This document shows, one piece after another, positions 12,472-59,686 of a stretch of DNA of 64,000 nucleotides. Both the position numbers and the translations under genes were made by a program. The DNA is taken from contig JACQXA010000003.1 in assembly GCA_016208975.1 (NCBI GenBank), positions 62,001-126,000 on the forward strand. The letters are read 5' to 3'. Under the pieces are notes generated by a model, which worked only from the letters and a program-made list of their open reading frames with translations, had not been told where the DNA came from and did not search any database. Within the stretch, counting starts at the first letter, position 1. The number at the start of each line of letters is the position of its first letter. This DNA is from Nitrospinota bacterium. GTDB lineage: Bacteria; Nitrospinota_A; UBA7883; JACRLM01.

Positions 12472-12576
12472 CGTCATCCCGGGCGTAGCGCAGGCGAAGA
12501 CCCGGGATCATGGCCTGTCAGCGCCATGCTTGAGGCCGTGGCCCCGGTTCGCGCTCCGCTTGGCCGGGGTGACAGC
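12472..12576. repeat. Family-B hairpin repeat pair next to the phage-like module
   Basis: CGTCATCCCGGGCG...ACCCGGGATCATGG (12472-12512) followed by GGCCCCGGTTCGCGC...TTGGCCGGGGTGAC (about 12540-12572). Same two-part arrangement as 590-716. It ends about 40 bp before the first gene of the Mu-like module. Confidence 0.7.
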
Positions 12577-12614
12577 TCTTTTACCGCGCTTTTATGCGCC
12601 ATTCCAGCGTGACC

Positions 12615-13085
12615 ATGGAAAATTACGTTTTGTCCGACAACCGTTTCCTTCTGGCCGTCATCGGCGTCGGCTGGTCGGCTTTGCTGGCCCTGCTTCGCCG
12701 CGCCATCGCCCAGGTGGAGGGGAAGATAGACGACAACGCCAGATCCGTGGCGGAGCTGAAAAGCCAGATGGGCGCCAGCATGGGCGAAACCAAGTACCGC
12801 ATCGAGCGGAGCCTGCGCGACCTGCTGGACGATTACCGCGCCGAGCTAAAAGACCTCTCCAACCGCATGGATACGGCCATGGAGGCCCGCCGCGCCGAAT
12901 TGGAAAGAATCTCCCGCCACCAGGCCGCCAGCGACTCCGCCACCAGAAAAGCGCTGGAAGAGCGCATCGAAAACGAGCGGCGCCATCTGGTCACCCGTCA
13001 CGAGTTCAACCTGCTGGCCGCTAACCTTCAGGGGATGGTGGAAGCCATATACAACCACGTCATTTCTCATGGAGTCAAAAACTGA
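12615..13085 (+). CDS. Mu gp25-like (DUF2730-type) membrane-anchored coiled-coil protein
   Basis: 156 residues from ATG 12615 (an ATG at 12594 would add seven residues; neither has a ribosome site). One transmembrane helix near the N-terminus (FLLAVIGVGWSALLALL) is followed by a long charged coiled coil up to about residue 125. Size, topology and position, first in the module and three genes ahead of terminase, fit Mu gp25/DUF2730. Function is unknown even in Mu. Its TGA overlaps the ATG of the next gene (TGATG), so translation is coupled. Confidence 0.6.
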   Translation: MENYVLSDNRFLLAVIGVGWSALLALLRRAIAQVEGKIDDNARSVAELKSQMGASMGETKYRIERSLRDLLDDYRAELKDLSNRMDTAMEARRAELERISRHQAASDSATRKALEERIENERRHLVTRHEFNLLAANLQGMVEAIYNHVISHGVKN

Positions 13086-13684
13086 TGGCCCAGCCAAGAC
13101 AGACAGACAAAATTCGCGCCCTGCGAAGGCTCTCCCTCCAGCTTCTGGCGGGGCTATACCTCTTCCCGCAGGCAGACCGGGCCATAGCCGGCGCCCTTCG
13201 AAAACGCTTCCCGGACATGGACGCCAAATCCGTCCGGGACTGCCTTTCATACCTCGCCAAGAAAGGTTACGTTTCCATCACCCGCTTGGGCGACGGGGCG
13301 CTCTCCGCGCAGATAACCCCCGCCGGGATAGACATAGTGGACGGCGCCATGGAAGACGACGGCGTGCTTCCCGGCAGGGCAGACCTTTCGGCCCTCACCG
13401 CCAAGAAGTCCATCCGCCAGGCCCTGCTCAACTATTGCCGCCAGTTCCCGGAATCCTTCAACGGCGACGACGAAATGGGCATGACCCTGGCCGACCAGGG
13501 CATGGAGCGCGTATTGATAGACCAGGTGCGGTTCCACATCTGGTACTTGTCGGGAAAAGGTTTTCTGGACCTGAGGTCGCAACCCGTGAACGGCGACGTG
13601 GTCTATCTGGCCCGCATCACCGCGCTGGGGATGGACGTGGCCGACGGCATAGCCGCAGACCCCGGAGTTACCGGCCATGAGTAA
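13085..13684 (+). CDS. Mu gp26-like winged-helix phage protein, duplicated domain
   Basis: 199 residues with two similar halves, each a winged-helix-like unit ending in a beta wing and the phrase (I/A)TPAGIDIVDG (about 75-85) or ITALGMDVADG (about 178-188). Mu gp26-like proteins are about half this length, so this looks like a tandem duplication or fusion. The likely role is DNA or protein binding close to packaging; that is inference from position between gp25-like and gp27-like genes. Starts in the TGATG overlap and itself overlaps the next gene by 8 nt. Confidence 0.55.
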   Translation: MAQPRQTDKIRALRRLSLQLLAGLYLFPQADRAIAGALRKRFPDMDAKSVRDCLSYLAKKGYVSITRLGDGALSAQITPAGIDIVDGAMEDDGVLPGRADLSALTAKKSIRQALLNYCRQFPESFNGDDEMGMTLADQGMERVLIDQVRFHIWYLSGKGFLDLRSQPVNGDVVYLARITALGMDVADGIAADPGVTGHE

Positions 13685-14261
13685 CACTTCTATTACCCTC
13701 CGCGCCGTTCCGGACGACATGGAGACCCAGGCCATGGAGCTGAAGCGCCACTTCAAACAGGAAGGCGCCAGGCTCATCCGCGAGTTTCTGGAGCGGGCCA
13801 AAACCGGTAGCGACGTGGAAGACATGGCCGCCCTGCTGGAGCTGGCCATATACCGCGACCTCCTGCGCAGATACGCCGACGACGACAAGGCGCTGGAACG
13901 CATCTCCATGGAACAGCTGTTGAAACTGGATATTTATTACCGCAGGGCCAGGTTGCAGGCCCGGCGCGAGGAGAGCCGGAGCAAAGACAGCGCGGCCATT
14001 AAAAAAACCGCCGCCCGCCTGTGCGTGAAGATCCTCGCCAAGGTGGAGGAGATGTCCGGCGAAGAGGACCAGGAGAAGATCCGCGCCCTGCGCGCACCGC
14101 TTCTAAGCTGGGCCGGGGCGGAGTTCGACAGGGAATCTATCGAGGAAATGGAAAGGGAGAACGATGGAATCGAACGGTTATCGGCGGCCATGCTCAACGG
14201 CGCCGGGGATTGTGGCGAGGAGCGGGCCGGAAATGGAAAAGCTGTTGGGCTGGCTGGCTGA
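13677..14261 (+). CDS. Putative terminase small subunit (Mu gp27 position)
   Basis: 194 residues, strongly helical and charged. It sits directly upstream of, and overlaps by about 98 nt, the terminase large-subunit gene, where Mu encodes gp27 (DUF3486). The N-terminal 60 residues begin SITLRAVPDDMETQAMELKRHF, with helices that could form an HTH. I assign the role by position and size rather than by a recognised motif. The long overlap with the next gene is unusual; if terminase starts at 14233 the overlap is 29 nt. Confidence 0.55.
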   Translation: MSNTSITLRAVPDDMETQAMELKRHFKQEGARLIREFLERAKTGSDVEDMAALLELAIYRDLLRRYADDDKALERISMEQLLKLDIYYRRARLQARREESRSKDSAAIKKTAARLCVKILAKVEEMSGEEDQEKIRALRAPLLSWAGAEFDRESIEEMERENDGIERLSAAMLNGAGDCGEERAGNGKAVGLAG

Positions 14262-15693
14262 TCCCGCCAATTTCGCCGAGGGGCTTATGGGCGCCAACGG
14301 CCAGGCGGTAAAGCTGGACCCGTGGCAGAAAAGCTACCTGCGCAACCCGGCCAAGCTTGTGTGCCTCCTTAAAAGCCGCCGGGTGGGAGGCTCCTGGATA
14401 ATGGCCATGAAATTTTTCATCCGCTCCCAGACCCGGGGGCGCTACTCCGGCGTGTTCGTAAGCATGAACCGGGAAGAGGCGCGGGGAAAAATAGATTACG
14501 TGGACGAGTTGCACGACTCCCTTCCGCTCCGCTGGCGGTTAAAACGCGTCCGCCGGAGCAAGGACGAGATAGCCTTTGTAAACTCCAACGGCCGCCGCGC
14601 CGTCTTGCGTTCCCTCGCCGCAAAGGCCCCGCGTGGCCGGGGCGGCGACGTGGGCATCTCCGAGCTTCCCCATTGCTGGAACTCCCAGGCCATATACGAA
14701 GGCGCCCTGCACGTCACCGCGCGGAATATGGATGACATCTTGACCATCGAGTCCACCCCCCTGGGCAAGGGGGGCGTGTTTCACGACGTTTGCCGGGGTG
14801 TTTATCCGGGCTTCGTCCGTTACGAAACGCCATGGTGGCTCTGCTCGGCGCTGTGCGTGGGCGTGGCGGAGGCCGCCCAAAACGCCCCGTCTATGGATAC
14901 CGGCGCCCGGGTGGCCAAGTACGGCTCCGCCAGTTTGAAAACCATTTTCGCCTCCATGCCCCTGCGGGCCTTCCAGCAGGAGTCGGAGCTCGAGTTTTGC
15001 GACATCGAGAACGCCGCATTCCCCATGAACGTCATCATCGCCTGCGCCGAGGCGGATTTCGCCGAAGACCCCGGCGCGCATTTGGTGTTCCGCAAGGTGG
15101 CCCGCGTCCCTTCGGATACGGATTGGGAATGGCTCCGCCGCAACCGCAAGGGAAGGCTTTTCGCCGGGTTCGACCCGGGCAGGAAAAAAGACCAGGCCGC
15201 CATGGTGATACTGGACTTCCACGCGGGAAGGTTTGAAACCCGCATGACCGTATCCATGCGGGATACTCCTTTTGCCCGGCAACGGAGCGCTTTGGAAACG
15301 GTCCTTTCCCTCGGTTGCGCCGGACTGCGGATGGACTCCACCGGCATCGGCATGGACATGGCCGAGCGGCTCCAACGCGCCTATCCCGGCGTGGCCGAAG
15401 GCGTAACGTTCACCCTCCAGTCCAAATCCCGCCTGGTGGCCGGGGCCTACAACGCCTTCGCCGACCGCAGGATAAAGATCCCAGCCGACCGGGAACTGAT
15501 GGCGGAGATAGGCTCCATCCGCGAGATAGTCACCGGGTCCGGCGCCACCATTTATCAGCCCGAAGGGGGCGAGGCCCATCACGCCGACTTGGCCTGGAGC
15601 CTGTTCCTGGCGCTGGACGCCGCCCGGCGTGAAGACCGGCCCGCCACGTCGGATTATGTCTCCGTGTCACGGCGGCGCGGGGCTCTGGTTTAA
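14164..15693 (+). CDS. Terminase large subunit, Mu gp28-like
   Basis: The packaging motor: an N-terminal ATPase and a C-terminal RNase-H-like headful nuclease. 509 residues. DPWQKSYLRNP (52-62) is the adenine-binding Q-motif region. SRRVGGSW (71-78) occupies the Walker A position in a degenerate form typical of Mu-like terminases. GFDPGRKKDQAAMVI carries the first nuclease acid (D337), and MDSTGIGMDMAERL follows for the second. The start at 14164 has GGGAGA 5 nt upstream; ATG 14233 is an alternative. All motifs appear intact, so packaging activity may be retained. Confidence 0.88.
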   Translation: MESNGYRRPCSTAPGIVARSGPEMEKLLGWLADPANFAEGLMGANGQAVKLDPWQKSYLRNPAKLVCLLKSRRVGGSWIMAMKFFIRSQTRGRYSGVFVSMNREEARGKIDYVDELHDSLPLRWRLKRVRRSKDEIAFVNSNGRRAVLRSLAAKAPRGRGGDVGISELPHCWNSQAIYEGALHVTARNMDDILTIESTPLGKGGVFHDVCRGVYPGFVRYETPWWLCSALCVGVAEAAQNAPSMDTGARVAKYGSASLKTIFASMPLRAFQQESELEFCDIENAAFPMNVIIACAEADFAEDPGAHLVFRKVARVPSDTDWEWLRRNRKGRLFAGFDPGRKKDQAAMVILDFHAGRFETRMTVSMRDTPFARQRSALETVLSLGCAGLRMDSTGIGMDMAERLQRAYPGVAEGVTFTLQSKSRLVAGAYNAFADRRIKIPADRELMAEIGSIREIVTGSGATIYQPEGGEAHHADLAWSLFLALDAARREDRPATSDYVSVSRRRGALV

Positions 15694-15723
15694 CAAATGA
15701 AAGCAACAATGGAGAAAGCCGCG

Positions 15724-16965
15724 ATGACACGAAAGCCTGTCCCGCGAAAAGGGGAGATAATCCCCACCCGGCCTCTCACCTTCTACGCCGGGCTCGCCCC
15801 CCGCGCCCTTACGCCCGGCTCCCTCACGGCGGTGTTGAACGGGCTGGACGCGGGTGATGTGGCCGAGGCCATGGCCCTGTTCGATGAAATGGGCGAGAAA
15901 GACCTGCACTTGGGCGCCGTATCCCAAACCCGCGCCCTCGCCGTTATCTCCAAGGACCGTGACGTGGCCCCCGCTTCTTCCTCCGCCGGAGATGAAAAGA
16001 TAGCCGCCTTCGTGCGGGAGGTTTTCGAAAACCTGCCCCGCAAACAGTCTCTGCTGGCGTCACTGATGTCGGCCTTCAGCCACGGGTTTTCCATGGCGGA
16101 AATGATCTGGGACGTGTCCGGGGGTCAGGCCGTTGTCACCGAGATAGCCCCCCGGCCTCAAAAGCTGTTCACCTTCGTGGATTATGAAGACCCAGCGCGC
16201 CTGCTGGATTTCCCGAATTACCTGGATCCCCATAACCGCGCGGGTATAAAACTGCCCCGCGACAAGTTCATCTTCCACAAAACCGCCCACGGGCCGGGGG
16301 ACGTTTTGAAATCCGGGCTCTATCGCGGCATCGCCTGGTATTACCTGTTCACCAACTATACCGTGAAAGACTGGCTGTCGTTCATGGACATATACGGCAT
16401 CCCCCTGCGGCTGGGCAAATACCGCCCCACCGCCGATGAACAGGCCCGCTCCACGCTCAAAGACGCCGTGGCCAATCTGGGCTCCGACGCGGCCGCGGTC
16501 ATCTCCGACGACACCACCATAGAGTTCATCCAGTCCGCCGTCTCCGGAAACAGCGCCCTGTATATGGACGCGGTGGAGTTCTTCAACCGGCTTAAATCCA
16601 AGCGCGTGCTGGGGCAAACATTGACCACCGAGGTTTCCGGTGGCTCCGGCGGGGCCTACGCCCTGGGCAAGGTGCACGACCTTGTGCGGCAGGACATCCT
16701 GGCCTTCGACTGCAAAGCGCTGGACGAAACCCTCACCCACGATTTCGTCCGCCCCCTGGTGGACGTAAATTTCGGCCCTCGCGCCAGATATCCGCGCGTC
16801 GTCACCCGCCTCACCCGCGCCGGGGAGTCGGAGGAAAAACTGGCGCAGTTGAAAACCCTCATAGAACTGGGCGCCCAGGTTCCCGCCCGGGTGGCGGCGG
16901 AGATAACCGGCGTGCCGCTCATCGGGGATATGGACTCGCCCCTCTCTCCCAAAGGAGGCAATTGA
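15724..16965 (+). CDS. Portal protein, Mu gp29-like (DUF935)
   Basis: Forms the dodecameric portal at the capsid vertex. 413 residues from ATG 15724, which has GGAG 9 nt upstream; ATGs at 15697 and 15709 are possible earlier starts. Family features include ALFDEMGEKDLHLGAVSQTRALAV near the start, SAFSHGFSMAEMIWDV, GIAWYYLFTNYTVKDWLSFMDIYGIPLRLGKY, and a C-terminal clip/wing region with LTHDFVRPLVDVNFG. It lies directly between terminase and the protease/scaffold gene; the Mu gp30 (F, minor head) gene that normally follows is missing here. Confidence 0.88.
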   Translation: MTRKPVPRKGEIIPTRPLTFYAGLAPRALTPGSLTAVLNGLDAGDVAEAMALFDEMGEKDLHLGAVSQTRALAVISKDRDVAPASSSAGDEKIAAFVREVFENLPRKQSLLASLMSAFSHGFSMAEMIWDVSGGQAVVTEIAPRPQKLFTFVDYEDPARLLDFPNYLDPHNRAGIKLPRDKFIFHKTAHGPGDVLKSGLYRGIAWYYLFTNYTVKDWLSFMDIYGIPLRLGKYRPTADEQARSTLKDAVANLGSDAAAVISDDTTIEFIQSAVSGNSALYMDAVEFFNRLKSKRVLGQTLTTEVSGGSGGAYALGKVHDLVRQDILAFDCKALDETLTHDFVRPLVDVNFGPRARYPRVVTRLTRAGESEEKLAQLKTLIELGAQVPARVAAEITGVPLIGDMDSPLSPKGGN

Positions 16966-16966
16966 A

Positions 16967-17905
16967 ATGAACGGAACGGTTTTGGACGCAAAAGACGGTT
17001 ACACCCTTATAGCGCCGCTGGGGGTTTTCCCCCATCCATTGGGCGAACAAGTGGTGGACCGTCAAACGGCGGAGCGGATTTTAAAACAGTTTCAGTCCTG
17101 GGGCCGCGACGTGGTGGTGGATTACATGCACGAATCGCTGAAAGAATGTGGCCGCGCCCCCGCCGCCGGATGGGTAAAAACCGCCACAGCCCGTCTTGCC
17201 GAAGATGGCGTGGAGGCGGTCATCGAATGGACCGCCGGGGCGTTGAACGCCATTGAGTCGAAAGAGTACCGCTTCCTGTCGCCGGTGTTCATCACCGACG
17301 GTAAAAGTATAAACGGCATTCTCAACCTGGGATTGACCAACAACCCCAACATCCACGCAATGCCCCCTTTGGTTAACGAATACCCAATCAACAAGGAGAC
17401 CATGATGACCAGTGATTTAAACCGATCCATAAGGGAAATTCTGGGGCTGGGCCCCGACGCGCCAGACAGCGCCGCGCTGGAGGCGGTAAAGGCGCTACTG
17501 GAAAAACCGTCCGCGCAGGCGGAGCCGTTAAAGACCGCCCTGGGCGACAAGGTGGCCCTGCTGGGCCTCACGCCGGACGCCACTGAGGAAGAGATTCTGG
17601 CCCGCATCGAAGAGATGGCAAAAGAGGCCGCCCGGGATGTCGAGTCGCAGACCACCCAACTGGTAAACGATGCGGTATCGGCGGGCAAACTGCGCCCCGC
17701 CCTGGCCGGGTGGGCCAATAACCTCGCCAGAAAAAACCCCGAGGCTTTGAAAGTGTTCCTGGCCAACAGCGGCCCCCCGGCGCCGTTGGGGGGCTACATC
17801 ACCACCTGTTCCTCCGGGAAAAAACCGGTATCGGAGAGCGAGGCCAACGTTTGCGCCCTGCTCAACATCTCCGAGTCCGATTTCGCTAAATACGGAAACC
17901 TGTAA
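16967..17905 (+). CDS. Mu I-like prohead protease with nested Z-like scaffold
   Basis: 312 residues. Residues 1-135 match the Mu-I protease domain (TLIAPLGVFPHPLGEQVVDRQ, DVVVDYMHESL, SPVFITDGKSINGILNLGLTNNPNI). Residues 147-312 are helical and acidic, as expected of a scaffold. In Mu the scaffold Z is translated from inside I. Here AAGGAG at 17393-17398 precedes in-frame ATGs at 17402 and 17405, so the same nested arrangement appears to exist. Starts one base after the portal stop. A tandem hairpin repeat follows the stop codon. Confidence 0.85.
   Translation: MNGTVLDAKDGYTLIAPLGVFPHPLGEQVVDRQTAERILKQFQSWGRDVVVDYMHESLKECGRAPAAGWVKTATARLAEDGVEAVIEWTAGALNAIESKEYRFLSPVFITDGKSINGILNLGLTNNPNIHAMPPLVNEYPINKETMMTSDLNRSIREILGLGPDAPDSAALEAVKALLEKPSAQAEPLKTALGDKVALLGLTPDATEEEILARIEEMAKEAARDVESQTTQLVNDAVSAGKLRPALAGWANNLARKNPEALKVFLANSGPPAPLGGYITTCSSGKKPVSESEANVCALLNISESDFAKYGNL
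17393..17407 (+). promoter_or_regulatory. Internal ribosome site and start for a Z-like scaffold
   Basis: AAGGAG (17393-17398) lies 6 nt before ATG 17405 (codon 147 of the protease gene; codon 146 is also ATG). Translation from here would give a scaffold-only product of about 166 residues beginning MTSDLNRSIREILGLG, exactly at the protease-scaffold boundary. Confidence 0.65.
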
Positions 17906-17909
17906 TTCA

Positions 17910-18010
17910 CCGTAGGACCGTTTCGTGAAGCGCCCGCATAAAACCGTGGGGCCGTTTCGTGAAGCGCCCGCATAAAACCGTAGGGGCGCTTCGTGAAGCG
18001 CCCTGCAAGA
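17910..18010. repeat. Three tandem 34-bp hairpin repeats inside the phage-like module
   Basis: Units at about 17910-17943, 17944-17977 and 17978-18010. Each holds (G)CGTTTCGTGAAGCGC or, in the last unit, the near-perfect palindrome GGCGCTTCGTGAAGCGCC preceded by GTAGGGGCG. The GTAGGGGC head is the reverse complement of the GCCCCTAC tail of the dispersed hairpin 2, so this is a stem variant of the host repeat. It lies between the protease/scaffold and decoration genes. Confidence 0.8.
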
Positions 18011-18026
18011 AAAGGAGATCAATAAA

Positions 18027-18677
18027 GTGGCCAACCTTACATCCGACAGAAAATCCATCCGCAAGGACGGAGCGCTCTTCGCCTACCCCGTGGCCGCGGC
18101 AACGGCTGTGTACTCCGGGTCGCTGGTGAACCTGAACGCCTCGGGCTACGCCGTGCCCGCCGCCGACAATTCCGCCCAGACTTTCGCGGGCAAGGCCGAC
18201 TACCGCGGCGACAACCTCACCGGAGCCAACGGCGACGCCAGCGTGGAAGGGCGGCGGTCGGGCGTGTTCGAGTTCAACGCCTCCGGCATGAGCATGGCCG
18301 ACATCAACGCCGACGCCTACGTGGTGGACGACAACACCGTGGGCCGGGGCGTCGTGGCCCAGCCGGTGAACGTCACCGGCGTATCGCTTAAACGGATACC
18401 CATGAGCCGGGGCGGTTCCCGCCAGCTTTCATACACCGCCACGGGAACCACTCTCGCCTATGGCGGCGGAACCGCCGTTAACGTGGGCGCGGGCGGCGAA
18501 TTCGTACTCACAGCCGCCGACGGCTCGCAGATATTGGCGCTGGTCACTTCAGCTTCTTTGCCAGGCTCCGACCAGGCCGACACCATCCAGCTCCGCCACA
18601 TCCGTTGCGGAAAGATCGTGGAGGTGGTCTCCTCGGCGTCGGTGTTCGTGGACATACTCTCCGCCTGCAGGTTCTAG
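18027..18677 (+). CDS. Capsid decoration / head protein (DUF2190-like)
   Basis: 216 residues, Ala/Gly/Val rich and all-beta in character. It has the typical start of small head-decoration proteins (KDGALFAYPVAAATAVYSGSLVNLNASGYAVPA). The region RGVVAQPVNVTGVSLKRI fits the exposed lattice-binding part of such proteins. The role, sitting on or stabilising the capsid, is inferred from composition and the position directly before the major capsid gene. The GTG start at 18027 is supported by AAAGGAG 9 nt upstream. The last 80 residues (TATGTTLAYGGGTAVNVG...) look like an added beta domain. Confidence 0.65.
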   Translation: MANLTSDRKSIRKDGALFAYPVAAATAVYSGSLVNLNASGYAVPAADNSAQTFAGKADYRGDNLTGANGDASVEGRRSGVFEFNASGMSMADINADAYVVDDNTVGRGVVAQPVNVTGVSLKRIPMSRGGSRQLSYTATGTTLAYGGGTAVNVGAGGEFVLTAADGSQILALVTSASLPGSDQADTIQLRHIRCGKIVEVVSSASVFVDILSACRF

Positions 18678-18722
18678 AAGGACCGTTAACCGTAATAACC
18701 CATTAAAGGAAGGTTGTCGAAA

Positions 18723-19727
18723 ATGCCTCACATAACCATGGCTCTTCTTTTTCTTCTGGCCGCAGTGGCCGCTTACGTCTCTGGCGATGGCGAAAGCTCC
18801 GCCCATTCGGCCATGTGGCCGGTCATCCTTGGCCCGGTCATAAACCGGCAAACCCTGTCCGACACCATGCGGGGTTTCAAAACCGTTTTCTCAAAAGCCT
18901 ACGAGGCCGCCATCACCCACTCCAATGACCTGGCCATGCGGGTGGACTCGAAAACCAAACAGGAGGAGTACCGCTGGCTTGGCGCCTTCCCCGGCTTGAA
19001 AGAGTGGATCGGCGAGCGGGCCGTCAAAGACCTGGCCATGAACGGGTTCGTGATAAAGAACCGGGATTTCGAGGCCACCGTGGCCGTCAGCCGCAACGAC
19101 GTGGAAGACGACAACATCGGCGTGTACGCCCCGCTCTTCTCCCAGCTGGGCGAGAACGCCAAACAGCACCCCGACGAGCTTATCTTCAGCATGTTGTCCG
19201 CCGGGTTCACCACCCCATGTTTCGACGGCATGAATTTCTTCGACACCGCCCATCCCAACGGCGCCCTCTCCCCTTGGAGCAACAAGGGTGTGGACCCGCT
19301 CTCCGCCGCCTCTTACGAGGCCGCGCGGCAGGGCATGATGAGCCTCGTCAACGAAGACGGCAGGCCCATGCGCGTTATGCCGTCGCACATCATCGTGCCG
19401 CCCCAGCTGGAAAAAGAGGCGCTGGACATCCTCCGGGCCGACCTTGCCACCGGGGCCGTCTCCAACGTGTGGAAGAACTCCGCCGACGTGATAGTGGCGC
19501 CGGAGCTTTCCGCCACGCCCACGCACTGGTTCCTGGCGTGTCTGAAAAAACCGGTGAAACCTTTCATCCTCCAGATGAGGAAAGAGGCGCAGTTCGTCTC
19601 CCTGGACAACCCCGACGACGAGAACGTGTTCATGCGCAAGGAGTACATCTACGGCGTGGACTATCGCGGCGCCGCAGGTTATGGCCTGCCCCAGCTCATT
19701 TTCGGCTCCACCGGCGGGGCTTTGTGA
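18723..19727 (+). CDS. Major capsid protein, Mu gpT-like, with hydrophobic N-terminal extension
   Basis: 334 residues. From about residue 37 (VINRQTLSDTMRGFKTVFSKAYEAA) it follows Mu gpT closely: YRWLGAFPGLKEWIGERAVKDL, FEATVAVSRNDVEDDNIGVYAPLF, HPDELIFSMLSAGFTTPCFDGMNFFDTAHP. Residues 1-36 are an extra leader containing a strongly hydrophobic run (ITMALLFLLAAVAAYVSG), like a signal peptide or membrane anchor, which this capsid family does not normally have. The ATG at 18723 has AAAGGAAGG 9 nt away; an in-frame ATG at 18813 would remove most of the leader but lacks a ribosome site. The leader joins in frame without any break. Confidence 0.87.
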   Translation: MPHITMALLFLLAAVAAYVSGDGESSAHSAMWPVILGPVINRQTLSDTMRGFKTVFSKAYEAAITHSNDLAMRVDSKTKQEEYRWLGAFPGLKEWIGERAVKDLAMNGFVIKNRDFEATVAVSRNDVEDDNIGVYAPLFSQLGENAKQHPDELIFSMLSAGFTTPCFDGMNFFDTAHPNGALSPWSNKGVDPLSAASYEAARQGMMSLVNEDGRPMRVMPSHIIVPPQLEKEALDILRADLATGAVSNVWKNSADVIVAPELSATPTHWFLACLKKPVKPFILQMRKEAQFVSLDNPDDENVFMRKEYIYGVDYRGAAGYGLPQLIFGSTGGAL

Positions 19728-19943
19728 AAGGGCTGGCGGCGATAATCATGCCGTGCGCCTTATTGTCATCCCGGCCAAGCGACAGCGCGAGCCGGCATCA
19801 GGACAGAGCCTGATGCCGCGTCAAGCGCGGCATGACCACCCCTCCCGCTGGCCGGGGTGTTTCCGCCCTCTCCCCTCCTCTCCCATGGCGGGCCGTTTCG
19901 TTTCGGCGAGGCGGCCCGCCACAAAAAAAGGAATGGTGAATAA
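19728..19943. repeat. Family-B-like hairpins between capsid and DUF1320 genes
   Basis: The gap holds GTCATCCCGGCCAAGCG...GCGAGCCGGCATCAG and CTGATGCCGCGTCAAGCGCGGCATGAC palindromes (about 19765-19830), then CTGGCCGGGG and a further GC-rich palindrome (GGCGGGCCG / CGGCCCGCC about 19888-19921). These resemble the host family-B repeats at 590 and 12472 more than phage sequence. No gene is seen. Confidence 0.6.
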
Positions 19944-20375
19944 ATGTCTTACTGCGTGATAGACGACATAACAAAGAAGCTGGACGAACGGACGCTCATC
20001 GAGCTTACAGACACCGCCGGAACCGGAACCGTGGACGCCGCGAAGGTGGAACGGGCCATCCGCGACGCCGACGCGCTCATAGACTCGTTCGTGGCCAAGC
20101 ATTACAAGACCCCCATGAGCCCGGTTCCCGCGCTGGTGGCGGACCTTTCGGCCACAATCGCTATCGTCAGCCTGCACCGGTTCCGCTCGGTGGAGTCGCC
20201 CGCATGGTCGCAAGCATACGACCGCGCCATGACGGTATTGAAAGGGGTGGCCGAGGGTAACGCAACCCTTGACGGGGCGCCGGAAAATCCGCCACCCGCC
20301 GATTCGGTGGCCTCCGCCCTCACTTTCTCCGCGCCGGGCCGGGTTTTCTCCCGCGACTCTCTTAAAGGGATGTGA
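19944..20375 (+). CDS. Mu gp36-like protein (DUF1320), head-tail connector
   Basis: 143 residues starting SYCVIDDITKKLDERTLIELTD, followed by RAIRDADALIDSFVAKHYKTPMSPVPALVADLSATIAIVSLHRFR. This helical arrangement is characteristic of Mu gp36/DUF1320, a probable head completion (gp6-like) adaptor. The C-terminal 30 residues are flexible and end SAPGRVFSRDSLKGM, a frequent DUF1320 ending. It directly precedes the gp37-like gene as in Mu. Confidence 0.83.
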   Translation: MSYCVIDDITKKLDERTLIELTDTAGTGTVDAAKVERAIRDADALIDSFVAKHYKTPMSPVPALVADLSATIAIVSLHRFRSVESPAWSQAYDRAMTVLKGVAEGNATLDGAPENPPPADSVASALTFSAPGRVFSRDSLKGM

Positions 20376-20394
20376 CCGTTACCAGAGGTGATCC

Positions 20395-20850
20395 ATGAAC
20401 TACACCATAAGCGAGATAGAAGACGCCGTCCTGACAGCCCTGGCCCCCATGAGCGTGGCCAACGGCGGCCCATTGAGGACTCTGGGCTCCTACGAAGGGC
20501 AGTTCGAAGAAGCTCTGACCGGGCGCGACCAGACAATAGTACTTCTGCCCGCCGCGCTGGTCACCTTCACCGGGGCCACATATCTGCCCGATGACGAGCC
20601 GTGTTTCGAGCGTACCGTGCGGTTCGCAGTCCTCCACGCCTCCATGAACTTGAAATCGGAGCCCGCCCGGCGGCGCGAGGTTTACACGCTGTTGGAAACC
20701 TCCAAGCGCTTGCTGTTAAACCAGACGTTGGGGCTGGAGATTACGCCGCTGGTCCTGGAGCGGGAAACCGTGGTGGAGTCGTCCCGTTCCGTCACCGTTT
20801 ACGGCGCCGAATACAGCCTCTCTTATCAGGAAGACCTGTCCGCCTACTGA
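20395..20850 (+). CDS. Mu gp37-like protein (DUF1834)
   Basis: 151 residues starting YTISEIEDAVLTALAPM and ending SLSYQEDLSAY, typical of the Mu gp37 family, thought to sit at the head-tail interface or tail terminator. The ATG at 20395 has AGAGGTG 6 nt away. Gene order gp36-gp37 is as in Mu; after this point the module departs from Mu, with no sheath, tube or tape-measure genes. Confidence 0.78.
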   Translation: MNYTISEIEDAVLTALAPMSVANGGPLRTLGSYEGQFEEALTGRDQTIVLLPAALVTFTGATYLPDDEPCFERTVRFAVLHASMNLKSEPARRREVYTLLETSKRLLLNQTLGLEITPLVLERETVVESSRSVTVYGAEYSLSYQEDLSAY

Positions 20851-20888
20851 CCCGGGCATCAACAATTAACCGCTGGAGTTTTATCACT

Positions 20889-21119
20889 ATGAATTACATC
20901 AAAACCGGAGCCGGAACGGTAACGCGGTTCCTTAAAGGCGGGGCGGCGCCCGCCACCGGCGCGGTTAAACCTTTGTCGAAACCGCAATCAGCCGCCCATG
21001 GGAAGCCAGCCGCCGATCAAAGGCGTTACGCCCGGTCGAAAATCGCCCCGGAGATTAACCGTTACCTCATCCGGTCTGGCCGTAAAAGCATGTTCTCTGG
21101 CGGCGTGGAGGGATTATAG
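20889..21119 (+). CDS. Small basic protein of the phage-like module
   Basis: 76 residues from ATG 20889, with GGAG 11 nt upstream. Rich in Lys, Arg, Ala and Gly (VTRFLKGGAAPATGAVKPLSKPQS, RRYARSKIAPEINRYLIRSGRK). No fold recognised. It lies between the gp37-like gene and the next small tail gene with only a few bases between genes, so it is probably translated as part of the operon. Function unknown. Confidence 0.5.
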   Translation: MNYIKTGAGTVTRFLKGGAAPATGAVKPLSKPQSAAHGKPAADQRRYARSKIAPEINRYLIRSGRKSMFSGGVEGL

Positions 21120-21121
21120 CC

Positions 21122-21520
21122 ATGGCTGTAAAACCGGAAATGGCCTACCCCTCCTTCGCCTCGGCCACGGCCACCTTCGCCCCATCCCGCTGGCCGGCCA
21201 TCGAGGGCGCCGGGTTCACCTTCATAAGGTTCGAGGCGGAAGGGCGTTCCGCCGGAGGTTCGTTTTTCCGGCAGACCTCACCCGTCACCGAGCGGCGGAT
21301 TCAGCTGACCTACAAATTCCTCACCACCGCCGAGCGGGACTCTTTTATGTCGCCCTCCGGCTCCGGGTTCCTGGCAACCGCAGGTGGCGCGCTGTTTGAG
21401 TACCGCAACCATGACGGATCCGTCCATCAGGCGCGTTTGGCCTCCGTGTCGGTGGACTCTTTCCCCACAGGGCCGGGCAGATGGACCCTCGGCCCCATAG
21501 AGTTGCTTATCACCGGCTGA
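21122..21520 (+). CDS. Small beta-rich tail protein
   Basis: 132 residues, beta-rich (RIQLTYKFLTTAERDSFMSPSGSGFLATAGGALFEYRNHDGSVHQARLASVSVDSFPTG...). It sits 18 nt upstream of the large hub gene. Size, composition and position suggest a distal-tail or tail-tip component or tail tube-like subunit; I cannot decide which. It follows the 76-residue gene by two bases. Confidence 0.55.
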   Translation: MAVKPEMAYPSFASATATFAPSRWPAIEGAGFTFIRFEAEGRSAGGSFFRQTSPVTERRIQLTYKFLTTAERDSFMSPSGSGFLATAGGALFEYRNHDGSVHQARLASVSVDSFPTGPGRWTLGPIELLITG

Positions 21521-21538
21521 ATCCTATCGGAGATTGAC

Positions 21539-24184
21539 GTGAAAACATTATCTAACACGATGTTGGCCGCCCTGTCCTCCGGCGTCATAAAACCGGCATG
21601 GCTGTTGAAGCTTGCGATGAAAGAGGGCGCCGCACCGGGCCGCGTGTTCTATCTCGCCGACAGGCCTGTAACCCTCTGGGGCGCAAACTGGCTTCCGCTG
21701 GTGAAACAGTGGGGCGGCATAGACAGGTATTTCGACCCCAACCTGGGCGGCGTCAGCGTGTCGGACATCACCGTGGAGCTTGTAAACTTCCGCGAGGCTC
21801 TCGGCCCCGGCGAGCCCAACATAAGCTGGTATTTCAGAAAATACGACCTGGCCGCGTCCACCGCCACCATCTATCTATGGCTGGACGGAGCCGGTTTGAT
21901 GGAGCCATCCGGTTCCAGCCAGAACGACCTGCTCACCATTATCACCGGCGCTCCGGAACTGGCCGGGGAGATAACGCCCTTCATATGCCCGCTGGACATC
22001 GTGGCCGGCCACTCCGGAGCAGACCCGCAGGAAACAAAGCTGGGCGACCTTCTCACCGGCAAATACAGCGCAAACCAGTGGGAAGGCCTGCCGGAAAACC
22101 TCGTTGGGCAATGGAAACCGCAGGTCTTCGGCGATAACGCCGTTAGCGATGGCGTGGCCCTCTTACAGCCCAAACGGGCGGGCACACTGGCGGGCCCCGA
22201 TGCGCTTTTCGACCCGGCCACCGGAGTCAATTACATATTGGTGAATTTCGGCGCGTCCGGCGCGGATGCTATCCCATTCCCCGCCCCGTGCGACATTTAT
22301 CTGGGCGACTGGCGCGTATCCGTCATCGCCCCTCCCTACAAGATTTCCGGCTCCCTATGGCGTTACGACATCGGCGGTTCCGGCCCCGCCAATTACTTCA
22401 TACCCACGCCCCTTCTGGGAGCGGAGCCTTTATTCATCCCCAGCGCCCAGGGTTTGTGGAGGCGTTCAGACGAAACAGGCTATGGCCCATACTCCAGCGC
22501 CGAGCCTCCTACTGGCGTCCCGTACCAGTTCCATCACGGCCCTTCGGATACCGGCAATGCCAGCGACGGCCACAACCCCGGCAAGCCGGGGCCGTTCATA
22601 AAATCCATTTTCGTCAACGGGGAAGAGCTTGCGGCCGCCGATTACGTCATAGACAATCCGTTCGGCATCGCATGGCTCAAGCTGGCCCGGGCCGGGGCGC
22701 TGGGCAAGATAGGCAACCCAAAATCCATCCTTCTAAAGTGGACGGCGGTGGATCCGGTCTTCACCACCGGCGACCAGTTTTTACGCCCCCAACAGCTCAC
22801 CGCGCAATATCCCTATGGATACAACGCCGACACCAACCCGTGCATCCTCGGCGATTTCGCCGTGCCTGCCTCCGGCGGCGGCGCGCCCGCTTCCACAACC
22901 CTGGGGCTTATAAACTCCATCCGCTATCCATATATAGGCGCCCGCCTGGCCTCCGTCCGGTTCGTAATGCGTTACACGGGGCTGGAGGTTTCCACCGGCT
23001 CGTTCAACCTGGAGATTTTCGGGCAAAGCTACTCTTTCGCCGCCTCGGAGTTAAATGACGGCGCGGGCATCGCATCCTCCGGCTGGTGGCTCAACAAAGA
23101 TCAAAAAGGCGCCCAGTTCGAGATTTGGCCCAACAACAACGGCTATCCGTACACCCAAACCAGCCCCGACCCGCGATATTGGGACATCCTCGAGCTTTCC
23201 CGCGATGTCACCGCCGACGCCATAAGCGCCATTGATGGCGCACATGGGTTCGACGACCGGGTGCGGCTCTGGTTCTCCGGAACCCAATGGCCGCTTACCA
23301 ACAGTTTCATTCTGCTCTCGGTGGAGTTGGAGGCGCTGTTCGATGGGGTGGAGTCCGCCCTGGAATCTCCCAAGGTGACCGCCATCATGGGCGACAGCGC
23401 CGTTACCGCCGGAGACATCATCCAACGCATTCTGCCTTCCGGCTCCATCGGTTCGGGTTTTACGGACCCCTCCCTGCCCGCGCTCCAATACCGGGTGGAC
23501 TCCCAGCAGGACGCGTTCACTTTCGCCTGTTCCGTGGCATTAAGCTCCAACCGCGAGCTATCGTTCAACAACAGCTCCGGCAAGTGGGACCTGGTTGAAA
23601 AATCCGCCATCACCAGCAATTTTAATCTCCCGCCCGCAACCGGCGGGCTGGCGGTAATAAACGAAGCCGGATTACTGGCCGGTGATGACGGCGCCCCAAT
23701 GATCAGCCGCTTGCGTTCCGCCCCGCAGTCGGTGATAAACGAAGTGGCCGTCACCTATACGGACACTTCCGGAGCCGTTATCACCTCCACTTTCCGCGAC
23801 CAGGGTTCCGTGGATGTTTATGGGGTCAAACGGCTGGAAACCGTAATGCCCGCCACAGCCTCTACCCAAACCGCCGAAGAATACGCGCTGGAAATTCTCA
23901 ACGAGTATTGCGACGTGGCGGACTATTACAAACTAACCTTCCCTCTGGGGCCCGCGCTGGCTTTGGAGCCCAACGATATCGCCACCATCAGCGCGTCCAT
24001 GGATTCGCTTTCGAACACTAAAATGCGTGTGGTCTCGGTGGAGATAGACCCGGGAAACCTCGCCGAGGGCGATTTTTCCACCATTACACTAAACCTTCGG
24101 CGGTACCTCAAGGCCCGTAGAGGCTATGGACAAACCACATTCGGCCAGGCCCCTTTCGGCCTTGGCCAGATTCAGGAGAACTGA
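21539..24184 (+). CDS. Large tail hub / baseplate protein
   Basis: 881 residues. The N-terminal about 190 residues recall tail-hub N-terminal domains (LAALSSGVIKPAWLLKLAM, then YLADRPVTLWGANW, VSVSDITVELVNF). Residues about 190-640 are beta-rich, Gly/Pro/aromatic rich and poorly recognisable. The C-terminal 170 residues read like gp44/gpD-type hub domains (EEYALEILNEYCDVADYYKLTFPLGPALALEPNDIATI... MRVVSVEIDPGNLAEGDFSTITLNLRRY). GTG start with GGAG upstream. The likely role is to link the tail tip or short tail to the fibre; no enzymatic domain is seen. Confidence 0.65.
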   Translation: MKTLSNTMLAALSSGVIKPAWLLKLAMKEGAAPGRVFYLADRPVTLWGANWLPLVKQWGGIDRYFDPNLGGVSVSDITVELVNFREALGPGEPNISWYFRKYDLAASTATIYLWLDGAGLMEPSGSSQNDLLTIITGAPELAGEITPFICPLDIVAGHSGADPQETKLGDLLTGKYSANQWEGLPENLVGQWKPQVFGDNAVSDGVALLQPKRAGTLAGPDALFDPATGVNYILVNFGASGADAIPFPAPCDIYLGDWRVSVIAPPYKISGSLWRYDIGGSGPANYFIPTPLLGAEPLFIPSAQGLWRRSDETGYGPYSSAEPPTGVPYQFHHGPSDTGNASDGHNPGKPGPFIKSIFVNGEELAAADYVIDNPFGIAWLKLARAGALGKIGNPKSILLKWTAVDPVFTTGDQFLRPQQLTAQYPYGYNADTNPCILGDFAVPASGGGAPASTTLGLINSIRYPYIGARLASVRFVMRYTGLEVSTGSFNLEIFGQSYSFAASELNDGAGIASSGWWLNKDQKGAQFEIWPNNNGYPYTQTSPDPRYWDILELSRDVTADAISAIDGAHGFDDRVRLWFSGTQWPLTNSFILLSVELEALFDGVESALESPKVTAIMGDSAVTAGDIIQRILPSGSIGSGFTDPSLPALQYRVDSQQDAFTFACSVALSSNRELSFNNSSGKWDLVEKSAITSNFNLPPATGGLAVINEAGLLAGDDGAPMISRLRSAPQSVINEVAVTYTDTSGAVITSTFRDQGSVDVYGVKRLETVMPATASTQTAEEYALEILNEYCDVADYYKLTFPLGPALALEPNDIATISASMDSLSNTKMRVVSVEIDPGNLAEGDFSTITLNLRRYLKARRGYGQTTFGQAPFGLGQIQEN

Positions 24185-24187
24185 CCG

Positions 24188-26014
24188 ATGCCAATTTCAG
24201 GCTACACCCCAAACCGCGCCCTGGCCAAAATCCTTCAAGGCTCCACCGACAATTGGGACGCGTGGCTCAACCAGAATTTCGACACGCTGGACGCGCCGTC
24301 GCTCATCTACCAGATAACCGCCGCCGAAAATCTCCCGGCGGGCCAGGTGGCCGTTATAAAAGATGACGGATCCGGCGCCAAGAAGGCGTATCTTGCCGCT
24401 TCCGGCGCCGTGACGATGGGCGATCCGCTTGGTGTGGTGAACGAAACCGTCTCTTCGAACAGCCCGGCCAGGCTCACCCTGGCCGGGCGCGTGCAGGACA
24501 ACGGCTGGAATTTCGGCCCGGCGGACAAACACGTTTATCTCTCCGCCTCGGGAACCGTCACCACCGCCCAAACCACCACGAAGCTGGGGTTCGCCCTCTC
24601 GTCATCGGCCATCTTTTTTAATCCGCAAAACCCATCCGGCGGCTCCGGCGGGCAGACCAACACCGTCACCGGCGCCAACGGCGTATCCAACACCGGCAAT
24701 AACGTGGACGCGGTCATCTCCCCTGTTTACGGCGCCACCGCCAACACCGTTTGTCAGGGTAACGACTCGCGCCTGCACAACCAGAACACCGATTTGGGAA
24801 CCTCCGCCGCCTCGTTCGAAATCAATTACACCGGTAACAGCGCCCGTCTGCTCACCACGGGATTAACAGCCAACCGGGATTTCACGTTTCCAGACGGCCC
24901 CACAAAACTTGTGGGGGAATCCGTTTCCGCCAGCATCACCGCGGCGCACACTTTTGCCCCGGCTACGGCGCAGGCGCCTTTTGCGTTAGGCGCCAACGCC
25001 CAGGGGCAACTTGTAACGGGATTGAACGCCGACAAGCTGGACGGGCAGGACGCCTCGGCCTTCGCCGCCTCAACGCACAATCATGACGCTTCATATTCCG
25101 TGTTGAGCCACAATCACACCGGGACTTACGAGCCCGCCAATGCCAACATACAATCTCACATCACCGAAACCGCAAATCCGCACAGCGTCACCGCTTCGCA
25201 GGTTGGAAACGCCACAGCCCAGTGGAACGCGGACAAGATTCAGGGCGTGTCCGTGGTCTCCACAGCGCCGTCCGACGGGCAGGTTTTAAAGTACGTCTCA
25301 GCCAACTCCCGCTACGAACCGGCCACCGTTTCCGGCGGCGGAGGCGGTTCATCATCGGGTTTTGGCGCCTTCGCAAGGCTTGTAATAAAGAACAACGCCA
25401 CCGCGCCGAACAGCAAGGTGGACATCACCGCCGACGCCATCACCCTCGAAGACTCCGCCGGCGCGGAAGTGAAAATGCGGGCTGTCAGCCTCACCGTGGA
25501 CATCACCGTTACCGGAGCCAATGGGCTGGACACGGGCGCCGAGTCAGCCAGCGCGTGGTATTACCTGTGGGCCATTTCCAACGGAACCGCCGTGGCCGGG
25601 CTTTTCTCCATTTCAGGCTCCACGCCATCAATGCCCTCCGGTTATACCTACAAACGCCTGTTGGGGGCCGCGCGCAACAACGCCTCGTCCAACTTCCTTG
25701 GGTTCAGGCAGGGCGGAAACAACTATTACTACAACACCCCGGTGACCGACTTGAGCGCCGGTACCGCCACCACATTCACCACCGTTACCCCCACTTTGCC
25801 TCCAATGTCGGTGGCGGCGAGGTTCACGCTGGACGGCGGAACCAATAACTTTTCATTCTCGCTGGACGGCTCCAACGCCTCGGCCTATGCCTATGGCATC
25901 AACCGCGCATATCAGGAGCTTCCCCTCAACGACGCGGGCCAGTTCTATTACAAACGGGACGCGGGCTCCGGCGGCATGACCATATACACAATGGGGGCCG
26001 CGCTGAACCTGTGA
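24188..26014 (+). CDS. Tail fibre protein
   Basis: 608 residues, Asn/Thr/Ser/Gly rich. The N-terminal part carries an attachment domain, then fibre phrases such as LNADKLDGQDASAFA, HNHDASYSVLSHNHTGTY, NPHSVTASQVGNATAQWNADKIQG, found in trimeric phage fibres. A GGGGGSSSG linker near residue 385 precedes a C-terminal receptor-binding-like beta domain ending GGMTIYTMGAALNL. It starts 3 nt after the hub stop. No chaperone gene follows. It presumably decides host contact. Confidence 0.8.
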   Translation: MPISGYTPNRALAKILQGSTDNWDAWLNQNFDTLDAPSLIYQITAAENLPAGQVAVIKDDGSGAKKAYLAASGAVTMGDPLGVVNETVSSNSPARLTLAGRVQDNGWNFGPADKHVYLSASGTVTTAQTTTKLGFALSSSAIFFNPQNPSGGSGGQTNTVTGANGVSNTGNNVDAVISPVYGATANTVCQGNDSRLHNQNTDLGTSAASFEINYTGNSARLLTTGLTANRDFTFPDGPTKLVGESVSASITAAHTFAPATAQAPFALGANAQGQLVTGLNADKLDGQDASAFAASTHNHDASYSVLSHNHTGTYEPANANIQSHITETANPHSVTASQVGNATAQWNADKIQGVSVVSTAPSDGQVLKYVSANSRYEPATVSGGGGGSSSGFGAFARLVIKNNATAPNSKVDITADAITLEDSAGAEVKMRAVSLTVDITVTGANGLDTGAESASAWYYLWAISNGTAVAGLFSISGSTPSMPSGYTYKRLLGAARNNASSNFLGFRQGGNNYYYNTPVTDLSAGTATTFTTVTPTLPPMSVAARFTLDGGTNNFSFSLDGSNASAYAYGINRAYQELPLNDAGQFYYKRDAGSGGMTIYTMGAALNL

Positions 26015-26478
26015 GAGGGATGAAAACAAACAGCGAGGGTTTGGCGCTGATCATGGATAGCGAAGGTTTTAGAGCCGATTGGTATCTTTGTCCAGCTGGC
26101 AAACCTACCATCGGTTTCGGGCATACAGGCCCGTTGCCCGAGGGATTTAACGCGCCCCTTTCGCAGGATCAGGCCGAGCGGCTGTTAAGGCTGGACCTGG
26201 CGGCGTTCGAAAAAGCCGTGTCTGAGCTGGTGAAAGTACAACTCACCGCAAACCGGTTTTCCGCGCTGGTGTCGTTCGTTTACAACGTTGGGGTTCAAAG
26301 CTTCAGGAAGTCCGCCCTTCTCCGGCGCTTGAACGCCCTCGATTACGCCCTGGCCGCCGAAGAGTTCAAACGATGGGTGAAGGCCCGGGGAAAACCCCTG
26401 CCCGGTCTCGTAAAACGGCGTTTGGCGGAACGCGAACTTTTTTTAAAGGAGGATACAGATGAGTTTTTTCCCGCATGA
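26011..26478 (+). CDS. Phage lysozyme (GH24 endolysin)
   Basis: 155 residues (152 from ATG 26020). The catalytic triad is E18-x8-C27-x5-T33 in SEGFRADWYLCPAGKPTIGFGHT, the E-C-T variant of the usual E-D-T. FSALVSFVYNVG and LPGLVKRRLAERELF are family landmarks. No signal peptide or signal-anchor, so release would need a holin. The GTG at 26011 overlaps the fibre stop; the ATG at 26020 has AGAGG close by. It hydrolyses peptidoglycan and opens the lysis cassette. Confidence 0.88.
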   Translation: MRGMKTNSEGLALIMDSEGFRADWYLCPAGKPTIGFGHTGPLPEGFNAPLSQDQAERLLRLDLAAFEKAVSELVKVQLTANRFSALVSFVYNVGVQSFRKSALLRRLNALDYALAAEEFKRWVKARGKPLPGLVKRRLAERELFLKEDTDEFFPA

Positions 26479-26716
26479 CAAACGGCCCGCGGCCCTGGGG
26501 GCGCTGGCGCTTTTCGGGCTGGCCGCCGCCCCGATCATTTCGCTTGCTGGTTGTGGAGGCGCGTCACTCCATGCAGGCGTATCCGGCTCCCGCTCCGTAA
26601 AGATAATGACGGTGGTGGAAGCCCACGGCATGAGCGACCCGGAAGAGGCTGGGGCGTTGGCCCGCAAGTTCATTAATACCGCGCCAGCTTTTCCGGAGGT
26701 CTCGGAAAATGAGTGA
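26459..26716 (+). CDS. Small lipoprotein of the lysis cassette
   Basis: 85 residues. After a charged start (MSFFPHDKRPA) comes a hydrophobic segment ending in the lipobox LAGC (C32), then a 50-residue mature part. It overlaps the lysozyme gene and is overlapped by the next ORF. In phages a small lipoprotein here is often the outer-membrane spanin; that is inference. Confidence 0.55.
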   Translation: MSFFPHDKRPAALGALALFGLAAAPIISLAGCGGASLHAGVSGSRSVKIMTVVEAHGMSDPEEAGALARKFINTAPAFPEVSENE

Positions 26717-26816
26717 GGTTATTGCGAACACGGCCCGGGTTGCGCTTTTTGTGGTTGCGCTTTTTGTGGGCGCCATCCTTCTGGGCTTGGCCACCCTTGC
26801 GGAAGGAGGCAGGTGA
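26709..26816 (+). CDS. 35-residue single-span membrane miniprotein
   Basis: The frame from ATG 26709 encodes one hydrophobic helix (VALFVVALFVGAILLGLATLA) flanked by short polar ends. GGAGG lies 10 nt upstream, inside the preceding gene, and its own 3' end contains GGAGG for the next gene. Possibly an i-spanin or holin fragment; too short to classify. Confidence 0.5.
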   Translation: MSEVIANTARVALFVVALFVGAILLGLATLAEGGR

Positions 26817-26817
26817 A

Positions 26818-27234
26818 ATGAGGATCGTATTGATTTTGGCTACTGCCCTGTCGTTCACGGCTTGCGGCAACTTCAACACCACCAACACCACATCCACAAG
26901 CCAGAGCGGGAACGTAACATCCTCCCAAACCGGCCAGACGGAATCTTCATCGTCACTATCGCTGGAAGTGGCGGTAACCCCGGCTGTGGTGGATAGCGCC
27001 ACCGGGGAAATAATCGCGCCGTCGCAATGGACGGTATTCATCATGGACTCCATGAATTTGCCGGAGATCGTGTACCAGATCACCGTGACAAAACCGGATG
27101 GGGCCACACTGGATTCAGAACGTATTTACGGCTCTTCCTGGTCATTCGCTCCGGACCTTTTGGGCTCTTACGTCATAGAGGCATGGGATCAGAATGGCCG
27201 CTCGGCGCGGCTTGTGATGTCCAGGGACAGCTGA
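26818..27234 (+). CDS. Lipoprotein of the lysis region
   Basis: 138 residues from ATG 26818, with GGAGG about 11 nt upstream. A signal peptide ends in the lipobox FTAC (C16), followed by a Ser/Thr/Asn-rich linker (SQSGNVTSSQTGQTESSSS) and a beta domain (VFIMDSMNLPEIVYQITVTKPDG...). The fold suggests an Ig-like extracytoplasmic domain. Could be a superinfection or surface-modifying (moron) lipoprotein rather than a lysis factor; its role is unknown. Confidence 0.6.
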   Translation: MRIVLILATALSFTACGNFNTTNTTSTSQSGNVTSSQTGQTESSSSLSLEVAVTPAVVDSATGEIIAPSQWTVFIMDSMNLPEIVYQITVTKPDGATLDSERIYGSSWSFAPDLLGSYVIEAWDQNGRSARLVMSRDS

Positions 27235-27235
27235 C

Positions 27236-27364
27236 GTGAAACCCGAACAAGAAGCCGGAGCCGATGGCAAAAAGGAGCCACGCCCCTTAACCATCTGGGT
27301 TGCGCGGTTTTGGTGGCGATTCCCGGCGATATTTTCAAACACTCGTAAGAAGGAGGAAAAATGA
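27236..27364 (+). CDS. 42-residue basic ORF, translationally coupled
   Basis: GTG at 27236 opens a short frame rich in Lys/Arg/Trp (ITIWVARFWWRFPA-like centre) whose TGA overlaps the ATG of the next gene (ATGA). Weak ribosome site. It may only serve to couple translation of the downstream holin-like gene. Confidence 0.35.
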   Translation: MKPEQEAGADGKKEPRPLTIWVARFWWRFPAIFSNTRKKEEK

Positions 27365-27627
27365 CACAGATTTTAGGCGTTATCAGGTTTCTTTTCGAGC
27401 TTCGCGGCGCGATGGCCGGGTATAAAACCTACATAGCCTCTGCGGCGGGCATATTGGCGGCCACGGCGGCGTTCCTTACCGGCGATGTTACGCCATTTCT
27501 GGAAGGGGGCATTACCGGCACGGAATTTATCACTAAATCCCTGCCGGACTACATCACCACGGTCACCGGATTTTTCGCCGTTGGCGCATTGAGGGTTGGA
27601 ATGGAATCCTCGCCCACGAAACGATAA
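27361..27627 (+). CDS. Holin-like small membrane protein
   Basis: 88 residues with two hydrophobic segments (TYIASAAGILAATAAFLTG, ITTVTGFFAVGALRVGM) joined by a short loop. The AGYKTYI...FLTGDVTP start resembles small phage membrane proteins near holins. The ribosome site AAGGAGG is strong. It is the last gene of the module; a GC hairpin follows. Confidence 0.6.
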   Translation: MTQILGVIRFLFELRGAMAGYKTYIASAAGILAATAAFLTGDVTPFLEGGITGTEFITKSLPDYITTVTGFFAVGALRVGMESSPTKR

Positions 27628-59671: not shown

Positions 59672-59686
59672 ATCCGGAAACCTAAG

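Follow-up and report, generated by a model that had tools for sequence, protein, structure and literature searches.

The subject of this analysis is a stretch of 64,000 nucleotides from a Nitrospinota bacterium (GCA_016208975.1, contig JACQXA010000003.1), here called the window (G000:C3:62001-126000; the host genome, G000, has 2.97 Mb in 4 contigs and is 100% complete). At positions 12594-27627 it carries a module of phage-like genes, on the + strand only, in which the genes for head and packaging come first and those for tail tip, fibre and lysozyme after them. The module is most likely a domesticated, vertically inherited phage-particle locus of one bacterial class that works in the manner of a gene transfer agent (GTA) with a Mu-type head, and we see in it a strong candidate for a bacterial DNA-transfer particle of a new kind. 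A preliminary description of the window had proposed a GTA-like or domesticated particle with a short tail or none; domestication and tail reduction are strongly supported by our comparisons, while the GTA function itself is what we infer. Domestication is well supported by conserved sites, a host-like phylogeny, purifying selection, the absence of MuA from all carriers and a parallel collapse of the tape measure.

A capsid orthologue was found in 12 of the 23 genomes of the class, with at most one close copy in each, and was missing from the phylum's 24th genome; the related contigs are labelled as Nitrospinota or Nitrospirae metagenome-assembled genomes (MAGs). Capsid identity is 79% within the same family (LeuS 73%), 67-75% within the same order, without the G003 copy and a partial copy in G005 (LeuS 66-68% for full-length copies), and 59-63% to the other order (LeuS 55-61%). 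A tree of six module genes sets the window's order (G000, G001, G004-G007) apart from the sister-order family f6 with full support, and the LeuS tree agrees. With G003 left out, pairwise module and LeuS distances gave a Mantel r of 0.956, a value reached by 3 of 10 000 permutations, and the module was found to change at about 1.2 times the rate of LeuS (mean ratio 1.22); adding G003 drops r to 0.67. The G003 copy (L027:7883-18001 and L028:1-9796, on G003:C79) is part of a longer related element lying off the host tree, with an S24-type repressor, a 661-residue tape measure and a capsid with a hydrophobic N-terminal extension, and is best read as a separate prophage. The distant second Mu-like capsid loci that G020 and G022 also carry (L082 on G020:C28 and L083 on G022:C5) are probably ordinary prophages.

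The module occupies the same site, glyA|module|tig-clpP-clpX-lon, in G020 and G022, genomes of two genera in which both flanks and the whole module are collinear (host-gene names at the relatives' sites were read from the sequences). G006 and G007, also of two genera, have the host genes downstream of the module in common. As marks of an ordinary prophage remnant the preliminary description had named transposase and repressor genes just outside the window with Mu ends, or a module confined to one strain with pseudogenes. MuA (PF02914; DDE_2) is absent from G000 and from all 12 module carriers, and orthologues are spread over the genomes counted above. The sole two MuA transposases of the class (L156 and L157, in G009 and G008) sit in genomes without the module.

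The tail is where the window's family, f1, departs from its relatives in the same order, among them family f5. Compared with these, f1 lacks the PF05069 tail-completion gene, a presumed tube of 351 residues, two chaperone-like genes and most of the tape measure; in G005, G006 and G007 the genes missing from f1 sit between gp36 and the gene of a 132-residue protein. The absence of tube and MuA reported for the window holds genome-wide, since the whole G000 genome was searched for the f5-type tail tube, the PF05069/Phage_tail_S tail-completion gene, the TIGR01760-type tape measure and the MuA DDE_2 domain, and none was present. G001 has one PF05069 gene, on a contig other than the module's. As to the tape measure, the preliminary description had seen none in the window; it overlooked a 76-residue C-terminal relic and with it the mechanism of tail loss.

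This relic is encoded by a small open reading frame (ORF) between gp37 and the 132-residue gene, with a product of 76 residues in G000, 55 in G001 and 59 in the metagenome contig L107, preceded in each by a sequence like that of Shine-Dalgarno (SD). The mini tape measure resembles the C-terminal end of the 209-216-residue tape measures of f5 (..R.NLAPEIFRYLRRSGR..): against both f5 proteins 0 of 2000 shuffles reach the score for G000 and L107, and 1 and 5 of 2000 for the weaker G001 protein. For the mini tape-measure gene, the pair with G001 gave proportions of nonsynonymous and synonymous differences of 0.28 (pN) and 0.59 (pS), on a sequence too short to conclude from. In f6 the corresponding place is taken by proteins of 80-106 residues that match the last 36-63 residues of the 853-residue L108 tape measure at 50-67% identity (E from about 1e-11 to 1e-22, with 12 sequences compared), and a protein of 325 residues is 35-39% identical to the presumed tube of L108. 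The contig L108 (IMGVR_UViG_3300022697_000216), a phage with an extended capsid, the 853-residue tape measure and f6-related tail genes, is the closest long-tailed relative found. Because the f1 protein resembles the f5 C-termini and the f6 proteins resemble the L108 C-terminus, these alignments demonstrate that at least two lineages have cut down the tape measure and retained its C-terminal end; the protein has 209-216 residues in f5, 80-106 in f6 and 55-76 in f1, which has lost the tube gene as well. In phage JBD30 the baseplate holds the tape measure by its C-terminal domain (PMC11445458), and the part kept here may likewise act as an anchor.

The reading frames of the packaging and head genes are intact, as had been described. 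An alignment of the large terminase (TerL) across families shows conservation of the ATPase motif K70-R72-G75-S77 (loop KSRRVGGS, which we take to be lambda-gpA-like), the Walker B acid E167 and the nuclease aspartates D337/D391/D475. The candidate small terminase had no match in either family library searched, neither of which names a DNA-binding domain; in G000 (window 13677-13740) it has lost about 38 N-terminal residues kept in all seven relatives compared. Since small terminases of known GTAs are reported in a review to be without the DNA-binding domain (PMC11841831), the resemblance of the truncated G000 protein to them is suggestive.

The major capsid protein probably starts at ATG 18723, 9 nucleotides after an SD sequence, and begins with a hydrophobic, signal-peptide-like extension of about 40 residues (window 18723-18850). 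Its significant PDB matches are limited to Mu-type capsids. The Mu and JBD30 capsid structures align only from profile position 38-42, solved Mu-type capsids being without the extension, and most of the ordinary Mu-like prophages compared lack it as well, their capsids starting at MIVNQ or its equivalent. The extension, with an SD sequence ahead of it, was seen in every class member with an intact start. It was set aside as a mark of domestication because it is also present in the prophage-like copy of G003 and in two contigs of long-tailed phages, L108 and L114; in the capsids compared it is a trait of the clade. Membrane targeting may be put forward as its role, with a question mark.

Selection was measured in G001 and L107; the tube-less module of L107 is complete, hub, fibre and lysozyme included. 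Ten genes, lying to either side of the tail deletion, gave ratios of nonsynonymous to synonymous substitution rates (dN/dS) of 0.12-0.25 at dS of 0.49-0.76, and none of them has an internal stop. These ratios are the cleanest evidence against decay, as they come from relatives sharing the tube loss. Together with the collinear site in G020 and G022, they bear out the comparison of site, frames and dN/dS across relatives that the preliminary description had proposed as a check of domestication.

We have weighed three other explanations. A host-restricted minimal phage, or a satellite resembling the capsid-forming phage-inducible chromosomal islands (cf-PICIs), could borrow tails and mobility from a helper and co-diverge with its hosts by chance. 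We consider this unlikely, if deserving of attention, since one host site is common to two genera with both flanks collinear, MuA occurs in no carrier, no integrase was recognised in the annotated flanks, and the module keeps a hub and fibre of its own. Nor does the window genome hold an obvious tailed helper, because it is without TIGR01760 and Phage_tail_S and because a search found one copy of the portal and one of the capsid. In favour of such an element are the patchy distribution, the different sites in different families and the existence of long-tailed phage contigs with related heads (L108, L114).

It is also quite improbable that the module makes a domesticated head-plus-tip particle with another job and no DNA transfer, be it killing, signalling or an empty shell. 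The evidence of inheritance and selection would fit any benefit to the host, the tail loss takes away the usual conduit for DNA, and the small-terminase candidate of G000 has lost its N-terminal segment; however, the module retains terminase, portal and head protease alike, with intact catalytic residues and low dN/dS, where loss of TerL would be expected if nothing were packaged. The third explanation, a decaying Mu-like prophage kept by chance, which the preliminary description had left standing, would account for the missing tail, regulatory and transposition genes and is rejected as hardly credible given the intact frames, the dN/dS of relatives with the same tail loss, a tube-less architecture common to three lineages whose amino-acid identity is about 0.5-0.9, and the parallel shortening of the tape measure, C-terminal end kept, in another order.

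Several observations weigh against a domesticated GTA-like locus. Presence is patchy (12 of 23 genomes; 1 of 4 species of genus g12), so that many losses are needed, and the related copy in G003 looks like a real prophage. Module sites differ between families, no relative in the window's own family shows both flanks, and most relatives are fragmented MAGs; vertical inheritance in f1 therefore rests on the tree and the shared tail loss. The 351-residue f5 protein is called a tube because of where its gene lies and a single weak match (phrog_290, 2e-5). AlphaFold2 models were discarded for both the capsid (10 rows; predicted local distance difference test score, pLDDT, 33) and the f5 tube (3 rows; pLDDT 30). 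Particle formation, DNA packaging, carriage of host DNA and delivery are predicted from the gene content, the system being known here at the level of its genes.

In agreement with a GTA, what we found is a head-tail cluster of phage origin with intact packaging genes, inherited vertically (G003 excepted), under purifying selection and without genes for excision, replication or transposition: MuA is absent, the flanks are host genes, and no integrase was recognised in the module or annotated flanks, integrase families not having been searched genome-wide. No regulator was recognised inside the module, no repressor or sheath in the window, and no PICI or satellite regulators in the module or flanks. 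In such a GTA-like system the host would express the operon, and heads would assemble from the gpT shell, the gpI protease and the portal. The terminase would then fill them with host DNA by headful, and the adaptor gp36 together with gp37 would close the head and neck. A tip complex of mini tape-measure anchor, 132-residue distal protein, 881-residue hub and fibre would sit almost directly on the neck, podovirus-like, and the lysozyme and small membrane proteins would release the particles. A further-reaching version, in which an independent, class-wide lineage of Mu-headed GTAs has collapsed its tail at least twice in parallel to a C-terminal anchor and delivers DNA without a tube, seems to us plausible, though we hold it tentatively.

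Genes of the module are collected in Table 1. Family matches confirm TerL, portal, gpI, gpT, gp36, gp37 and endolysin, and so the Mu-like head, packaging and lysis genes that the preliminary description had placed in order on one strand. In its gene list the head and tip genes are real; the ORFs at 19681-19959 and 20998-21399 and the first half of that at 20601-21119 are probably not genes, and the 76-residue gene, which lies inside the last of these frames, was missed. The 132- and 881-residue proteins had been singled out for profile searches. The 881-residue hub could be assigned by way of an orthologue: its own match to PF13550 is weak and below the cut-off, whereas the 55% identical G007 orthologue passes (30.5 > 23 bits, 4e-7). 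The 132-residue protein matched no known family, and profile searches of the PDB with tube, hub and 132-residue protein gave chance matches only. The 85- and 173-residue membrane/lipoproteins are likely spanin-like lysis helpers.

Table 1. Genes of the module, in window coordinates
Gene product	Position	Strand	Evidence
163-residue membrane-anchored coiled-coil protein, first module gene, Mu gp25 position	12594..13085	+	same-place orthologues in G001, G004, G006, G020, G022, L107
199-residue protein, Mu gp26 position	13085..13684	+	phrog_436 1.1e-20; kept in relatives
Candidate small terminase	13677..14261	+	position before TerL; orthologues in G001, L107, G004, G006, G007, G020, G022
Large terminase TerL	14164..15693	+	phrog_5909 1.6e-28; Terminase_6C, PF17289
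Portal, Mu gp29-like	15697..16965	+	phrog_113 7e-95
Head maturation protease, Mu gpI-like	16967..17905	+	phrog_328 3e-52
Decoration/minor head protein, gpZ-like	18027..18677	+	phrog_1731 1.5e-26
Major capsid protein, Mu gpT	18714..19727	+	PF10124 3e-95; 8rkc 5e-72
Head-tail adaptor, Mu gp36/gpJ, DUF1320	19944..20375	+	phrog_195 1e-36; JBD30 adaptor 8rka E 1.8e-12; Mu gpJ 9khx
Mu gp37-like connector/stopper-region protein	20395..20850	+	PF08873 1e-13
Mini tape measure, 76 residues	20889..21119	+	C-terminal anchor alone kept, ..IAPEINRYLIRSGR..; SD-preceded ORF, same place in G000, G001, L107
132-residue distal-tail-like protein, directly after mini tape measure	21122..21520	+	49-56% identical in 5 relatives; omega 0.21
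881-residue tail hub/tip protein (Phage-tail_3)	21539..24184	+	PF13550 0.0014; 52-55% identity to three orthologues
608-residue fibre/receptor-binding protein	24188..26014	+	phrog_17105 2.6e-12; Mtd second-domain match; orthologues in L107, G006
Endolysin (phage lysozyme)	26011..26478	+	phrog_7 1.5e-56
Two small membrane/lipoproteins, 85 and 173 residues	26459..27234	+	signal/lipobox-like N-termini; no family match
88-residue two-helix membrane protein, holin-like, last module gene	27361..27627	+	sequence; no family match

To the left the module is flanked by mnmA, an inositol phosphatase gene and an MBL-fold gene, all ordinary host genes, and to the right by a host gene for a MltD/LysM lytic transglycosylase. 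The module starts at 12594; the ORF at 12247-12612 has a homologue in no relative. Two candidates in the left flank were rejected: the gene at 8443-9525, considered as a defence (QueC-like) gene, is mnmA according to Pfam, and tRNA-Met at 8224-8300, considered as an integration site, is separated from the module by host genes. The transglycosylase gene (27761-30169) begins 134 bp past the module, on its strand, and the two could share a transcript. Further away, a HigBA-like toxin-antitoxin pair (59390-59992) shows 60% identity to one that G007 carries immediately before its module (L023:2069-2659), on the upstream side.

Among the papers searched, none was found on gene transfer agents in Nitrospinota. 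Few GTAs are known; one with a Mu-type head and vertical inheritance, from a lineage mostly known through MAGs, would mean a further, independent origin. From 853 residues in the phage relative, the tape measures step down to 209-216, 80-106 and 55-76 in the modules. This amounts to a natural experiment in which a long tail was removed with head, neck and tip under selection, and it opens to testing the question whether a tail tube is required for DNA delivery.

Among known systems, the JBD30/B3-type phages (Casadabanvirus), with a Mu-type head and a siphovirus tail, share with the module the head gene set, the gpT capsid (8rkc, 5e-72) and the DUF1320 adaptor (8rka); we read 8rkc and 8rka as JBD30 entries from the record names and PMC11445458. 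The tail of JBD30 is 180 nm long, with 45 tube discs, and its tape measure has 1158 residues or more (PMC11445458), whereas the module has a 76-residue anchor, no tube, no MuA, and a capsid with the hydrophobic N-terminal extension. From a tailed siphophage it differs in that the genome has no f5-type tube or TIGR01760 and the 76-residue anchor alone is left. The order and families of the head genes gp27-gp37, T, I and portal, and the lysozyme, are those of a Mu-like prophage, but tail genes are absent and the sites in relatives are fixed and syntenic; with no MuA in the genome, the module is not a Mu-like transposable prophage. The cf-PICIs have their own capsid and packaging genes without a tail tube, and are in this like the module; in contrast to them, it has no recognised integrase or satellite regulators, has its own hub, fibre and lysozyme, and co-diverges with its host.

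The GTA of Rhodobacter capsulatus (RcGTA), encoded by a cluster of about 15 kb, is likewise a prophage-derived, vertically inherited head-tail cluster of similar size with conserved packaging genes. With 216 residues, as summed from domain lengths (113+83+20; PMC7296036), its tape measure is short like the 216-residue protein of f5. The module differs in its Mu gpT-type head, in a tail with no tube in f1, in belonging to another phylum and in being described so far at the level of genes. It is not a member of the RcGTA family, as judged from its capsid, which is Mu gpT (PF10124, 3e-95), another capsid family. In the genomic respects tested, the small-terminase point aside, the module looks like a GTA, and it appears to be one of independent origin with a tail reduced further than that of RcGTA.

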